Of a stretch of DNA of 64,000 bases, positions 52,888 through 59,722 are shown one piece after another. The notes beneath the pieces were generated by a model that worked only from the letters and a program-made list of their open reading frames with translations, searched no databases and was not told the origin of the DNA. The DNA is from Sulfurovum sp. NBC37-1 (GTDB lineage Bacteria; Campylobacterota; Campylobacteria; Campylobacterales; Sulfurovaceae), in the NCBI RefSeq assembly GCF_000010345.1, contig NC_009663.1:1178001-1242000 (forward strand). Reading direction: 5' to 3'. Every line of letters starts with the position of its first letter. The stretch's first letter is position 1. The translations under genes and the position numbers were made by a program.

Positions 52888-53709
52888 CTATAGAAAGTGA
52901 TGGCTTTTACAGGGAAAGCGTTCACTGTTTTTAACGACTTCTGCAAAAACTGTCAGTGTCGTTCCTGATACTTCGGCAATTCTTTTCAATGTCTCCAGAT
53001 ACGCTTTATTGAAACCGACAAGCATTTCATACTCTTCCCCACTAAAGCCTATTTCATCGCTTATATTATTTAATATTTCGAATCCATATTTATTCATATC
53101 AAGCAACTTGTTCGTATCGCAGTAGAGACCGTCGGAGATATCCATCCCGGCACTCAGGAACGGTCTTGCTTTCGTGACGAAACCGGCTCTCAGTTTCGGT
53201 TCATAGAAGCATGAATTCTCTGCGATCGCCTCTCCGCTTAATAGTCTGTCCAGGTCTCGTTTGCACTCACCCAGTGTTCCGGTATAGGCAAGCAGGTCAC
53301 CCTCTTCCAACCCCTTACGTAAAAGCGGATCATCACTCTGTGAAATGATGGTGATGGAGAGGTGAAGCTTGTCTCCGGCAACGGTATCGCCACCGATGAT
53401 CTCACAGCCGAACTGGGCAGCCGTGTTCTCCAGGCTTTGCGTCAACGCGTCTATCTCTTCCGTGCTCACATTCTGAGGCAGGGAGACTGTTACCAAAGCG
53501 TATTTGGGCTGTGCGTTCATCGCTATGGCATCCGAGAGATTTACCAGCATGGCCTTCCTCCCTATCTGCGTCATGCTCATCCACGCTCTTTTGTAGTGTG
53601 TATCTTCAAAGAAGGCATCCATACTGTAGAGTGTATTCCCTACCACAGCGGCATCGTCACCGATATATTTGGAACTCAGTTTGTGAATGAGATAGTGCTC
53701 TTTATCCAT
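52888..53709 (-). CDS. thiL: Thiamine-monophosphate kinase ThiL
   Basis: This 273-residue kinase makes thiamine pyrophosphate from the monophosphate. It opens with LIHKLSSKYIGDDAAVV, the ATP/Mg-binding GDDAAV of the PurM-like fold. Further family segments are MSMTQIGRKAMLVNLSDAIAMNA, IIGGDTVAGDKLHLSITI and SAGMDISDGLYCDTNKLL. It is somewhat shorter than E. coli ThiL (325). No thiamine riboswitch is seen upstream. It is divergent from the SdhB/SdhE-hybrid gene. Confidence 0.92.
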   Translation of the reverse strand: MDKEHYLIHKLSSKYIGDDAAVVGNTLYSMDAFFEDTHYKRAWMSMTQIGRKAMLVNLSDAIAMNAQPKYALVTVSLPQNVSTEEIDALTQSLENTAAQFGCEIIGGDTVAGDKLHLSITIISQSDDPLLRKGLEEGDLLAYTGTLGECKRDLDRLLSGEAIAENSCFYEPKLRAGFVTKARPFLSAGMDISDGLYCDTNKLLDMNKYGFEILNNISDEIGFSGEEYEMLVGFNKAYLETLKRIAEVSGTTLTVFAEVVKNSERFPCKSHHFL

Positions 53710-53860: not shown

Positions 53861-54916
53861 ATGTCATATACACTTAATATCAAAGCATTCTTTTTCAATG
53901 CACAAACGGATTATCTTCCTTACTATAAACAATTCAAGGTCACTTTGGATGAAGCGGCAAAAGCCGTTGATATGTTGGCGCAGATCAAAGCGCAGAACGA
54001 GAACTTTTCCTATCCTGAAGAGAAATTGGTCTTCAGGATCAACGATCTTGTCGTAGAGGGTGAGCAGCCCATGAAAGAGGTGGTGGAGAGACTCGGTACC
54101 GCGCTTCAGATCGATCCTGTCAATGCCTACCGCTCCAACAACGGGCTGATCATAAATGACGATGACTTCATGCAATCCTATGAGTTGCTTGCCCCGTATG
54201 CCTCAGAAGAAGACCTGGAGTACTATAAGACACTTTACGCCCTGCATTACGCTTCTGAAACAGAGAAGTTCGACCATGACTACATCGGGGATGCCGTACT
54301 TGTGCTGGCACACAGGCTCATTGCCGAAGAGAGCGAACATGCCGAAGTGATCCTGCATACGATCTCCACTGCCCACAGCGGCCTGTTCGAATGCGAATAC
54401 GAGAACAACCTCTTCAGGGCACAGGATCATACGGATGCCATCGAGGCGCTCAAGCTGATGGTCAAACCACCCAAAAAGACCGAACCGGGATTGATAGATA
54501 AAATGACCGCAAAATTCATCAAAAAGCCTGAAACCAAAAAAGCATCTGTCGTACTTATCGAGACCGAAGGTAAAGAGATCGCCTACTATTATGGTGGCGG
54601 AAATGACAACTCAGAAGCCGTCGCAAAAAAGATCGCCGCGCTGGGTGCGACCATGACTACATTTGCCAGAGCTCATAAACTCTGCGGACTGGCACTGCTT
54701 GAAGACCGCAAAGCGCTTGCATTCAAAAAAGCGGGCATTACACTGCTCGATGCCCTCGACTGCGGAGCGGACATTCTGGTCGTGGAAAATGCCGCTGCCT
54801 ATGAGATGTTCAAAAAGAACCTTTCCGCCATTGCAAGGACTATGGGTAGAGACATAGAACTGACGCTGATCACCACTGAAGACTTTCTTACTATGAACGA
54901 ATCAGTAGCCGCTTGA
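53861..54916 (+). CDS. Cysteine-poor hybrid of SdhB-like and SdhE-like domains (DUF5644-like)
   Basis: This 351-residue protein starts NIKAFFFNAQTDYLPYYK (6-23), which matches SdhB residues 8-25 (TIKAFRFNAETDYLPYYK) at 15 of 17 core positions. The following NFSYPEEKLVFRINDLVVEG aligns with the [2Fe-2S] loop of SdhB but has none of its four cysteines. Residues 228-325 resemble the SdhE CCG domain: HKLCGLALLED against NKCCGFHVELQ, and LLDALDCGADILVVENAAAY against MVDAIDNNADIMVTPCPLCH. Only Cys275 of the metal-binding set survives. A helical region (about 100-200) links them. It is encoded just upstream of sdhABE in the same direction. ATG 53861 is preferred; an earlier ATG lies too close to the TATAAT at 53824. 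Confidence 0.85.
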   Translation: MSYTLNIKAFFFNAQTDYLPYYKQFKVTLDEAAKAVDMLAQIKAQNENFSYPEEKLVFRINDLVVEGEQPMKEVVERLGTALQIDPVNAYRSNNGLIINDDDFMQSYELLAPYASEEDLEYYKTLYALHYASETEKFDHDYIGDAVLVLAHRLIAEESEHAEVILHTISTAHSGLFECEYENNLFRAQDHTDAIEALKLMVKPPKKTEPGLIDKMTAKFIKKPETKKASVVLIETEGKEIAYYYGGGNDNSEAVAKKIAALGATMTTFARAHKLCGLALLEDRKALAFKKAGITLLDALDCGADILVVENAAAYEMFKKNLSAIARTMGRDIELTLITTEDFLTMNESVAA

Positions 54917-54924
54917 TAAAAATG

Positions 54925-54960
54925 TCTGATGCATTACATTAAATAATGTAATGCATCAGA
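54925..54960. terminator. Perfect 17-bp inverted repeat between the hybrid gene and sdhA
   Basis: TCTGATGCATTACATTA (54925-54941) and its exact complement (54944-54960) are separated by 2 bases. A-runs flank it on both sides, so a U-tract follows the hairpin only on the minus strand; on the plus strand it ends TGAAAAACC. It may terminate or protect the upstream transcript, or bind a dimeric regulator of the sdh promoter. Confidence 0.65.
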
Positions 54961-55073: not shown

Positions 55074-56801
55074 ATGAATACGAACTCAGATGTTAAAATC
55101 TACGAATATGATGCTGTGATTGTCGGTGCCGGTCTTGCCGGTCTCGCTGCTGCCAAAGAACTGACAGCTGCGGGGAAAAAGACTGCGGTCATCACCAAGC
55201 TTCATCCCCTGAGGTCACACTCGGGTGCTGCACAGGGTGGTATCAATGCCGCTTTGGGTAAAGACGACTCTACGGAACTACATGAATTTGATACAGTCAA
55301 AGGGTCTGACTACCTTGCGGACCAGGATGCAGTCGAACTTATGTGTACCAAAGCCCCTGAAACGATCCGGTGGGCAGAGCACATGGGAACGGTCTTCTCC
55401 AGAGATGAAGAAGGTGATATCGCTATCAGACCATTCGGCGGCCAGTCCAAACCCCGTGCCTGCTATGCGAAAGACAGAACCGGGCTTGCATTGCTCCAGG
55501 CAATCTACGAGCAGGCATTCCGTGAAGGTATTGAAGTATTTGATGAGTGGTACTGCGCAGACCTGCTGTATGAAGACGGGAAAGTTTCAGGGGTCTCTGC
55601 TTTCAACATTCGTAATTCAGAGCCGGCTATTTTCAATGCAAAAGTAACCATGTTTGCGACAGGCGGACATGCAAGAGCGTACAGATTTAACTCCAATGCG
55701 CATGCCAATACGGGTGATTCACTTTCAATCGTTGCAAGACACGGCCTTCCGCTTGAAGATATGGAATTCGTACAGTTCCACCCGAGCGGACTCGGTGGTT
55801 CGGGGGTACTTATCTCTGAAGCAGCACGTGGTGAAGGGGGTCGTCTTTACAATTCTGAAGGTGAAAGATTTATGTCCAAGTATGCTCCCAATGCTATGGA
55901 GCTTGCATCAAGGGATGTTGTAAGCCGTGCGATCATGGAAGAGGTCCGTCAGGGACGCGGTGTGGGTAAGGACGGTCAGTCCGTGAATATCGACCTGACG
56001 CACCTCGACCCAGAGATCATTCTGACAAGACTGCCGGAGCTTCGTGAACTCGCCATCGCTTTCCAGGGGCAGGATATGCTTAAAGAGCCTATCCATATCT
56101 CTGCAACGGCACACTACTCCATGGGGGGTATTCCGGTCAATATCGACTGTCAGGTACGCAAAAGCCCTACGGAGTTCGTAGAAGGTTTCTATGCTGCGGG
56201 TGAATGTTCCTGTGTTTCCGTACACGGAGCAAACAGACTGGGTGCCAACTCGGTACTCGAAGCCCTGCTTTTCGGACGTCATGCCGGTGAAAACATGGTA
56301 AAAGCACTTGATGAAGGTGTAGAATTGCGTAAAGCGAACAAAGCAGATGCACAGAGAATGCTCGATGAGCTCAAGAGGATCAAGACATCCAATGGAACAG
56401 AGAGGGTTGCGGACCTCAGAACGGAACTGCAGAACGGGATGACAGCTGATGCAGGTGTATTCAGGACTAAAGAATCACTGGAAAGACAGCTCAAACTGAT
56501 CGACAGACTGCTGAAGCGCTTCAATAACATCCGTATTGATGACAAGTCTCATACTTTTAACACCGAATTGCAGGAAGCTCTTGAGCTTGGTCATATGCTT
56601 GAGTTCTCCAAATTCATTGTCGTAGGCGCGCTCAACAGAGAAGAGAGCCGCGGTGGCCACTACCGTGAAGACTTCCCGACACGAGATGATGAAAGATTCC
56701 TCAAACATACGTACGCCTATATGGATGAAGACTTCAACATAACCACGGAATGGGGAGACGTTGTCCTCGGCAAGTTTGAACCTAAAGAAAGAACATATTA
56801 A
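55074..56801 (+). CDS. sdhA: Succinate dehydrogenase/fumarate reductase flavoprotein subunit (SdhABE type)
   Basis: This 575-residue flavoprotein interconverts succinate and fumarate. It has an FAD motif [16 protein letters not shown], the covalent-FAD histidine in [19 protein letters not shown], substrate-site HPSGLGGSG and HYSMGGI, and [19 protein letters not shown]. The first residues carry no Tat signal, so unlike the periplasmic MfrA of Wolinella this enzyme should face the cytoplasm. A C-terminal extension follows residue 420 as usual. It is first of the sdhABE operon. Physiological direction cannot be told. Confidence 0.94.
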
Positions 56802-56811
56802 GGAGGGCATG

Positions 56812-57801
56812 ATGAGTGATACAAGAAAAGTAACGATAAAAGCATTCAGATTCAATGCTGAAACAGACTATCTTCCATACTATAAAGAGTATGAGATGGA
56901 AGTGGGAAAAGATGAACTCATTCTCGACCTCCTCAACAGGATCAAATGGGAACATGACGGTTCTTTCTCCTACAGACGTTCATGCAGGCACGGTATCTGC
57001 GGTGCCTGTGCGATCAAGGTGAACGGAAGAGCGACACTGGCATGTAAACAGAATGCCATTGAACTGCTTGATCTGTTCAACAATGAACTGGTATTTGAAC
57101 CTTCCAGTAAAAAACGCGTGGTTAAAGATATGATCATCGACAAAAAGGACTTCTGGGACAAACATGCGGCGGTCCAGCCGTATGTAGTTGCAGATATCGA
57201 CCCGCATCCCGAGCATGAAACAAAGCAGAGTATTGCAGAATTCAACAAATTCCTTGATTCTGACCTTTGTATCCAGTGTGGTGCCTGTCACTACTCCTGT
57301 CCTGCACTTGAAGCGAATCCTGACTATCTCGGGCCTGCAGCACTCAATGCAGCATACCGATTCACGGTCGATACCAGAGACCATGCCGGCAAAGAGAGAC
57401 TTGAACTCACAGCTGAACCGGGTGTGGGTGTCTGGGACTGTGTGAAGTGTTTCGAGTGTGCCGAAGCCTGCCCCAAAGATATCAATCCTATCGAGAAGAT
57501 CACTAAATTGCACAATATGCAGTTTGAGCAGCATGTGGCAAAAAGCAATGTCGCTACAAGACACGCGGAAGGTTTTGTACGAAGTATCAAAAAGCACGGT
57601 TTCCTTGACGAAGCGGATATCGTGGTATATTCAGAGGGGTACCTCGGTATGTACAAACACCTCAAAACCGCGATGAAAATGATGAAAGCCGGCAAGATCC
57701 ACTGGAACGACGGACTGCCTTGGGTGGACAATGTGCCTAAATCCAAAAATCTTGATGAAATCCAGAAACTCATCGAGATCTCACAAACGAACAAGCTGTA
57801 A
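56812..57801 (+). CDS. sdhB: Succinate dehydrogenase/fumarate reductase iron-sulfur subunit
   Basis: This 329-residue protein carries electrons from SdhA. The [2Fe-2S] cysteines are Cys58, 63, 66 and 78 in SCRHGICGACAIKVNG and LACKQ. Two further clusters lie in CIQCGACHYSCPAL and CVKCFECAEACPKD. The third site keeps four cysteines, so a [4Fe-4S] is likely where classical SdhB has [3Fe-4S]. The C-terminal extension (about 250-329) is typical of SdhABE types. ATG 56812 has AGGAGG 5 bases ahead. Its N-terminus is nearly repeated in the hybrid protein at 53861. Confidence 0.94.
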   Translation: MSDTRKVTIKAFRFNAETDYLPYYKEYEMEVGKDELILDLLNRIKWEHDGSFSYRRSCRHGICGACAIKVNGRATLACKQNAIELLDLFNNELVFEPSSKKRVVKDMIIDKKDFWDKHAAVQPYVVADIDPHPEHETKQSIAEFNKFLDSDLCIQCGACHYSCPALEANPDYLGPAALNAAYRFTVDTRDHAGKERLELTAEPGVGVWDCVKCFECAEACPKDINPIEKITKLHNMQFEQHVAKSNVATRHAEGFVRSIKKHGFLDEADIVVYSEGYLGMYKHLKTAMKMMKAGKIHWNDGLPWVDNVPKSKNLDEIQKLIEISQTNKL

Positions 57802-57810
57802 GGAGAAACG

Positions 57811-58695
57811 ATGAGCAAATTAAAATATGCACTATTTACAGGATGTACCGCAAAGCAGTCCACACCTGAACTACTGTCATCTACGCTTGCAGTAGCGGAT
57901 AAACTGGGTATCGAAATCACCATTCTGGAAGAGGCTTCCTGCTGCGGCGCGAGCCATCTTCAGGACTTCGACGAATTCCTGGCACATGTACTGAATGCAA
58001 GGAACATCTGCTATGCAGAAAAGCTTGGTCTTACCATGATCACCATCTGTAACACCTGTCAGCTCAACTCTGCCATGACAAAACATGCGCTTGACACGGA
58101 TCCGGATCTCAAAGCGAGGGTCAACGAGAAACTTGCAGAGGTAGGCTTGGAATACAAGGGTACTTCAGAGATCAAACACTTCCTCTACTGCCTCATCGAC
58201 GAGTATGGTCTTGAAAACATCAAGGATAAGGTGGAGGTACCACTCAGCCATCTGAACATTGCGCCATTTTACGGATGTCACAACATCCGCCCGTCCGAAC
58301 TGCACCACACGAGCAACGGCGGAGAGAACCCGTACAACCCTACCTCACTCGACCAGCTCATCGATGCGCTCGAGGGCCATCCGGTCAACTACGACCACAA
58401 GAACAAGTGCTGCGGTTTCCACGTAGAGCTTCAGGCGAACCATACCTCAGAAATACTTGCAGGTAATGCCATGGTAGATGCTATCGACAACAATGCTGAT
58501 ATCATGGTAACACCCTGCCCACTCTGCCATCTCAAGATGGATACCTACCAGGACGATGTAGGCAAGGTTATCGGACGCGATATAGAACTTCCCGTTCTTC
58601 ACATGCCTCAAATGGTTGCGCTTGCACTCGGCTGTACACCAAAAGAGATCGGACTGAACTACCACGTTCAGAAAGCCACTCACCTTACGGCATAA
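57811..58695 (+). CDS. sdhE: SdhE/HdrB-like CCG-domain subunit
   Basis: This 294-residue cysteine-rich protein replaces the membrane cytochrome b of classical complexes and links the enzyme to quinone or heterodisulfide-type chemistry. It has two CCG repeats: Cys12, Cys44-45 and Cys80/83 in the first, and Cys156, Cys200-201 and Cys236/239 in the second. Each repeat can bind an unusual iron-sulfur cluster, as in heterodisulfide reductase subunit B. It begins 9 bases after sdhB with AAGGAG. No transmembrane helix; an amphipathic C-terminus may attach to the membrane. Confidence 0.94.
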   Translation: MSKLKYALFTGCTAKQSTPELLSSTLAVADKLGIEITILEEASCCGASHLQDFDEFLAHVLNARNICYAEKLGLTMITICNTCQLNSAMTKHALDTDPDLKARVNEKLAEVGLEYKGTSEIKHFLYCLIDEYGLENIKDKVEVPLSHLNIAPFYGCHNIRPSELHHTSNGGENPYNPTSLDQLIDALEGHPVNYDHKNKCCGFHVELQANHTSEILAGNAMVDAIDNNADIMVTPCPLCHLKMDTYQDDVGKVIGRDIELPVLHMPQMVALALGCTPKEIGLNYHVQKATHLTA

Positions 58696-59335: not shown

Positions 59336-59722
59336 ATGCCAAAAATTAATAAATATGTTGACATCGACACAGTAGAAAGAGAAGCAAAAAAAGACCTTAT
59401 CGACAGACACTCACCGTTCATCACCGTTTTAGGTGACGCAAAAAAAGGTGAAATGCTTGCAGTAAACGTTAAAATGGGTCAGGAATACACTCACCCGGAT
59501 GATTTCGACCACTACATCGAGTCTATCACACTTTTTGACGGTGACACAAAACTCGCTATGGCTACATTCGTACCGGGAACACTCGGTAACGAAAAATCTC
59601 ATGCTGAAGTAACATTCAACATCAGACCAATGAAAAGCAAACTTAACCTTGTTGCACACGGTTACTGTACAAAACACGGAATCTGGGAATCTACTCCTGT
59701 TGAAGTAGCTGTAGCAGACTAA
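59336..59722 (+). CDS. Superoxide reductase (neelaredoxin type)
   Basis: This 128-residue enzyme reduces superoxide to peroxide at a [Fe(His)4Cys] site. Ligands are His25 (DRHSPFI), His53 and His59 (YTHPDDFDHYI), Cys111 and His114 (CTKHGIWES). The desulforedoxin N-domain is absent, so it is a class II enzyme. The usual Glu-Lys-His before the first ligand is Asp-Arg-His here; the lysine often gates the iron, so the arginine is notable. A TATAAT lies at 59298-59303 and AAAGGA 6 bases before the ATG. A terminator follows. Confidence 0.92.
   Translation: MPKINKYVDIDTVEREAKKDLIDRHSPFITVLGDAKKGEMLAVNVKMGQEYTHPDDFDHYIESITLFDGDTKLAMATFVPGTLGNEKSHAEVTFNIRPMKSKLNLVAHGYCTKHGIWESTPVEVAVAD

Follow-up and report, generated by a model that had tools for sequence, protein, structure and literature searches.

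A protein-coding gene next to an intact sdhABE operon of Sulfurovum sp. NBC37-1 resembles two subunits of the operon at once, with their iron–sulfur ligands stripped away. What is this protein, here called X, and does it serve the enzyme beside which it is encoded? X begins with an ATG at 53861, which is preceded by AAGGA and matches the start position of its relatives in our alignment (A1), and its stop codon occupies 54914–54916. The operon (55074–58695) lies on one side of X and a divergent thiL-like gene on the other. The features below are numbered within the window, by which we mean the whole stretch of 64,000 nucleotides analyzed.

52888–53709, minus strand: ThiL-like gene, conserved divergent neighbor of X (named by eye, not by family search)
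53861–54916, plus strand: protein X, 351 amino acids, DUF5644/HP0468 family; fused and shortened metal-free SdhB-like and SdhE-like parts (open reading frame; AAGGA upstream; dN/dS ~0.13 against genome G221)
53861–54178, plus strand: X residues 1–106, SdhB N-terminal [2Fe-2S]-type domain without the four cysteines (dhsB models, E ~3e-6; hhalign, 8e-32; ligand columns; AlphaFold2 model with Foldseek matches to SdhB)
54179–54475, plus strand: X residues 107–205, DUF5644 region, cysteine-free SdhB dicluster domain (Pfam PF18712, E 6e-4; hhalign to the SdhB dicluster domain)
54476–54565, plus strand: X residues 206–235, low-confidence linker (pLDDT mostly <60; alignments)
54566–54889, plus strand: X residues 236–343, C-terminal half of SdhE/HdrB without cluster ligands (Pfam HdrB-like_C; hhalign to SdhE, 2e-15; Foldseek to HdrB 8rvu_B, E 9e-3, probability 1.00)
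54925–54960, no strand assigned: perfect inverted repeat of 16 bp in the gap separating X from sdhA, resembling a terminator on the minus strand
55074–56801, plus strand: sdhA, intact flavoprotein
56809–57801, plus strand: sdhB, all 12 cluster cysteines present, paralogue of the N-terminal part of X
57811–58695, plus strand: sdhE, CCG motifs present, paralogue of the C-terminal part of X

X combines SdhB-like and SdhE-like parts

As the preliminary description of the locus had pointed out, X residues 7–23 (IKAFFFNAQTDYLPYYK) match the neighboring SdhB (IKAFRFNAETDYLPYYK) at 15 of 17 positions, and BLASTP carried this likeness over residues 5–178 (63.5 bits, E 1.5e-15). The C-terminal third, which had been likened to the second CCG domain of SdhE, also aligned as described, with KLCG against KCCG and LDALDCGADILVVEN against VDAIDNNADIMVTPC, and residues 239–337 matched the neighboring SdhE by BLASTP (36.2 bits, E 1.2e-6). 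The highest score that any of 500 shuffled X proteins achieved against either subunit was 26.2 bits. When 31 relatives of X were compared with ten true SdhB proteins using hhalign, 217 columns aligned through the dicluster domain (E 8e-32), extending the likeness over both SdhB domains; the C-terminal part aligned with the second half of SdhE (E 2e-15).

Among curated family models, the NCBIfam dhsB models matched residues 5–139 below their cut-offs, Pfam DUF5644 (PF18712) matched residues 99–192 with 20.2 bits (cut-off 25), and Pfam HdrB-like_C matched residues 279–332 with 27.5 bits (E 3e-6, cut-off 33.4). Relatives of X exceeded the cut-offs for DUF5644 (including homologues in the same alignment as X) and HdrB-like_C, and two did so for the Fer2_3 2Fe-2S domain as well. 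The preliminary description had the layout of the N- and C-terminal parts right and had left the stretch between them unassigned. Because the SdhB alignment runs into the dicluster domain, this stretch, which is the DUF5644 region, is best read from its sequence as a degenerate second domain of SdhB.

The AlphaFold2 model of X (pLDDT 89.4) had two confident parts joined by the linker, with low confidence around residues 206–229. In the alignments, what relatives have at this linker is the break between two genes and/or the first CCG-type domain of their SdhE-like part. Foldseek matched the model to 3kwl (E 3e-14), then to SdhB/FrdB chains (from 9e-10), and then, more weakly, to HdrB (9e-3, probability 1.00). 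Profile alignment, AlphaFold2 and Foldseek thus agree on a two-domain SdhB fold, and hhalign and Foldseek agree on an HdrB-like C-terminal half. The preliminary description had proposed a comparison of predicted structures, and its outcome favored the assignment: the weaker HdrB match belongs to the short C-terminal domain of X, and the separate SdhE-like partner found in relatives with split genes had the full HdrB-like fold (predicted structure, pLDDT 92.7; TM 0.90 and 0.87 to HdrB and 0.84 to 3kwl). Identity falls to only ~25% outside the first 25 residues of X, as it might if the resemblance had arisen by chance or convergence; the shuffles, the profile E-values, the fold matches and the order of the parts, SdhB-like and then SdhE-like, already contradict that explanation, to which we give practically no credence.

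The cluster ligands are lost throughout the family

Of the 12 SdhB ligand columns, only two contained any cysteine in the 31 X proteins, with two cysteines each (four in total), and the conserved cysteine columns of SdhE were nearly as empty, the cysteines found there being stray. X of the window has none of the four [2Fe-2S] cysteines (some relatives have a stray single one), and the segment that carries the first two of these ligands in SdhB (C60 and C65) is absent from residues 1–106. Both cysteine sets of the dicluster domain are missing, as are the CCG motifs and, in the window, the first CCG domain itself; the one SdhE-type cysteine retained there is the C of KLCG. The loss of SdhB and SdhE ligands first noticed in this one protein therefore holds across the family, stray exceptions aside. 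Lacking clusters, X cannot carry electrons as SdhB and SdhE do.

Polar residues that do not vary in the SdhE-like half (D214, D218, R244 and H274) have counterparts in D226, D230, R256 and H285, which true SdhE retains. Being common to both, they probably serve the structure, and we found no new invariant motif that looks catalytic.

X belongs to a phylum-wide family that includes HP0468

A BLAST-type search found matches to X in 242 of 298 Campylobacterota genomes, the weak ones being true SdhB. Combining DUF5644 matches with strong X matches placed the family in 190 of the 298 genomes, and 14 control genomes outside the phylum had no match. (A profile search of the contigs, based on a narrower alignment than A1, reaches close relatives only.) The idea of one polypeptide that mimics SdhB and SdhE without metal has survived, and the idea of a peculiar hybrid has not: X is part of a phylum-wide family rather than a one-off. 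The likeness to SdhB and SdhE, which the preliminary description had asked about in orthologues outside this context, is indeed carried by relatives that are not beside sdhABE.

In many genomes X takes the form of two adjacent genes encoding SdhB-like and SdhE-like proteins of ~225 and ~275 amino acids, the second a full-length relative of SdhE (hhalign, 8e-33). Adjacent split genes occurred in 4 of 13 genome families (f2, f3, f10 and f13) and one frame in others; some genomes have a single frame of ~500 amino acids, as in HP0468. The PDB structure for the family, 3KWL, is, we infer from its length, organism and family, HP0468 itself. The N-terminal profile of X matched it at residues 24–226 (3.7e-50) and the C-terminal profile at 255–514 (5e-38); X alone matched with 1.6e-5 (phmmer), and the halves come in the same order.

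Our tree, which has no outgroup and so does not fix the position of the root, placed the X proteins in a single clade (support 100/100) that excludes SdhABE, MfrABE and another, third set from family f4. This grouping, together with the ligand columns, makes the ligand loss look like a single old event. The window-type proteins (~350 amino acids), whose SdhE-like half has no first CCG-type domain, fall on several branches, some with moderate support, so this shortening probably arose more than once. Taken together, the sequence comparisons make X almost certainly a member of the DUF5644/HP0468 family, derived from an ancient sdhB–sdhE copy that lacks the Fe–S ligands.

Two further observations concern where family members lie; the taxon names given to genomes in the whole-genome searches are deduced from records that carry a name. 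One Sulfurovum genome with X beside sdhABE has a second DUF5644 match, in a 387-amino-acid frame, away from the operon (G284:C19:47464-47712). In Helicobacteraceae-type loci (L052–L062) the X pair lies 3′ of an oligoendopeptidase (PepF-like) gene and 5′ of a CutA-like gene (both named by eye).

HP0468 emerged as a hit for gastric cancer in a genome-wide association study, in which it was called poorly conserved outside Helicobacter (PMC6090961); its orthologues across the Campylobacterota contradict that description. The family was already known by name and structure (3KWL), not by function: we found no functional study of DUF5644, HP0468, 3KWL or Cj1459/Cj1460 in the literature, and no open-access paper linking the family to SdhB or SdhE, although such a link may have been stated before.

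A probably inherited position beside sdhABE

In the preliminary description, X was suggested as a possible assembly scaffold for the SdhABE complex or as one of its structural subunits. Among the 298 genomes, 14 had both X and window-type SdhABE, 176 had X without it, and 56 had SdhABE without X, so a tie to this complex is not supported as a rule, and X occurs with sdhABE in only 14 of 190 cases. Where both are present, X adjoins sdhABE in 10 of the 14 genomes and lies 2–3 kb away in two more, and in one locus (L056, 4279–6962) the X stop codon overlaps the sdhA start by 4 bp, which likely places X in the sdh operon of that lineage. Coupling to sdhABE is accordingly possible in some lineages.

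The proximity has another explanation. In many genomes that lack sdhABE, X has the thiL–truD genes next to it; of 35 fetched loci with no X at this place, 24 have thiL next to sdhABE. Because thiL–X is kept without sdhABE and thiL–sdhABE without X, the adjacency of X and sdhABE is best seen as an inherited position; we dropped it as functional evidence, since truD–thiL–sdhABE is also the order in genomes without X. The most parsimonious ancestral arrangement would be truD–thiL–X–sdhABE, with X a tandem copy of sdhBE. It is therefore unlikely that X serves the neighboring complex as a dedicated assembly factor or as a subunit, whether accessory or structural: the adjacency and the L056 overlap speak for it, and the genomes with one and not the other, the inherited gene order and the much faster divergence of X than of SdhA, SdhB and SdhE (below) speak against it.

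In the window, the ~150-bp spacing between X and sdhA suggests that sdhA is a separate transcription unit. The sequence of the 16-bp inverted repeat in this gap is not kept in relatives, among which we found no conserved regulatory hairpin between X and sdhA; several have other hairpins. The ~1.4-kb gaps between thiL and sdhA in Sulfurimonas-type loci do not hide a diverged X. An unrelated protein of ~400 amino acids with a hydrophobic N terminus is encoded there (L172–L177, L188 and L204–L206). A small desulfoferrodoxin/superoxide-reductase-like gene (59336–59722, plus strand; named by eye) follows the operon in the window. Many loci have such a gene 3′ of sdhE; other families have it 3′ of the SdhE-like half of the X pair (observed in the window and in L178–L181, L183 and L184).

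X is constrained but diverges rapidly

Compared with its counterpart in the closest genome, G221, X had a dN of 0.051 and a dS of 0.40, a ratio of ~0.13. Across 41 Sulfurovum-type loci, median identity to the window copy was 51% for X, as opposed to 89% for SdhA, 83% for SdhB and 90% for SdhE. X is thus under purifying selection yet changes faster than its neighbors. In the same pair of genomes (G221 locus L003) sdhA had a dS of only 0.02 against the 0.40 of X, and dS was much lower in the middle of X than at its ends; the contrast suggests recombination at the X–sdhA locus.

A truncated SdhE half, lost ligands and fast divergence are what a decaying, functionless relic of a duplicated sdhBE pair might display. 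This explanation is very improbable, as it is already contradicted by open frames throughout the phylum, presence in 190 of 298 genomes, the dN/dS of 0.13 and a well-predicted fold.

A possible role as a protein-binding pseudo-subunit

How might a constrained protein of this build have arisen, and what would it do? In the explanation that we favor, an ancient sdhB–sdhE pair in the Campylobacterota was copied, presumably by duplication, and then lost its Fe–S cluster ligands. The halves of SdhB–SdhE and of HdrC–HdrB bind each other, and the constant pairing or fusion of the X halves, including in full-length HP0468, suggests that they do so too; the products of the two adjacent genes would then form a heterodimer of the same kind. 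In the lineage of the window the pair would have become fused and the SdhE half would have lost its first CCG-type domain. The retained fold could serve as a rigid, metal-free protein-binding module, making X a pseudo-subunit rather than a fixed SdhABE subunit: it would hold or regulate a partner, perhaps one belonging to the succinate/fumarate enzymes, while that partner is assembled or turned over. With a median identity of 51%, compared with 89% in SdhA and 90% in SdhE, X is unlike a tightly packed core subunit. Taken as a whole, we give this explanation, a metal-free SdhB–SdhE pair acting as a protein-binding pseudo-subunit, a probability of about 0.5.

Its functional part is more tentative. 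FrdB was present in 177 of 190 genomes with X and in 60 of 108 without (odds ratio 10.9), an association that follows family boundaries, may reflect shared ancestry, and is only a lead; in the loci examined, X was not seen beside frd genes. We tentatively favor a non-catalytic role for X in connection with fumarate reductase/succinate dehydrogenase, in scaffolding, assembly or regulation, with odds of somewhat over one in three. Mimicry of the way SdhB docks on the flavoprotein is doubtful, because the SdhB loop with the first ligand cysteines is missing from X. Less probable again is the specific proposal that a phylum-wide, metal-free pseudo SdhB–SdhE complex, H. pylori HP0468 included, serves the flavoproteins of these enzymes as a placeholder or as a scaffold for quality control.

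The metal-free pair may instead do something that has no connection with succinate/fumarate enzymes: it may, for example, bind a small molecule, act as a regulator or belong to another complex. Across the phylum the family is found in diverse surroundings, and apart from X's own second half no functional partner is conserved; HP0468, described as a protein of unknown function, is reported to be raised in H. pylori by H2 (PMC6090961). Nevertheless, no new catalytic-looking motif accompanies the old fold, and X still goes with FrdB. We rank such a new role level with, or close behind, the scaffolding, assembly or regulatory one.

Apart from the choice of role, X illustrates clearly how an electron-transfer module can lose more than 20 cluster ligands and still retain its whole fold, and the DUF5644 family, conserved across the Campylobacterota including pathogens, gains an origin and a testable frame. 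If a role in assembly holds, an enzyme's own subunits would have been turned into an assembly factor by the removal of their clusters.

Comparison with known systems

The nearest known system is DUF5644/HP0468 (PF18712, 3KWL), which has the same two-part metal-free build. Proteins of the HP0468 type are ~500 amino acids long with a whole SdhE-like half, whereas X of the window, at 351, has neither the first CCG-type domain nor the extreme C terminus. SdhB and FrdB share with X the two-domain fold and the N-terminal motif; they have the cluster cysteines, whereas X has none of them and lacks the stretch that bears the first two [2Fe-2S] ligands. The CCG proteins SdhE and HdrB (HdrB structures 5ODC and 8RVU) resemble the C-terminal half of X by profile, and in the split relatives the HdrB fold is complete; CCG motifs are present in these proteins and absent from X, of which the window form keeps the second half only. 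The 8-methylmenaquinol:fumarate reductase (MfrABE), present in some genomes, is a related SdhB/SdhE set; by BLAST, X matches SdhB of the SdhABE type (E down to 1e-15) and no MfrB.
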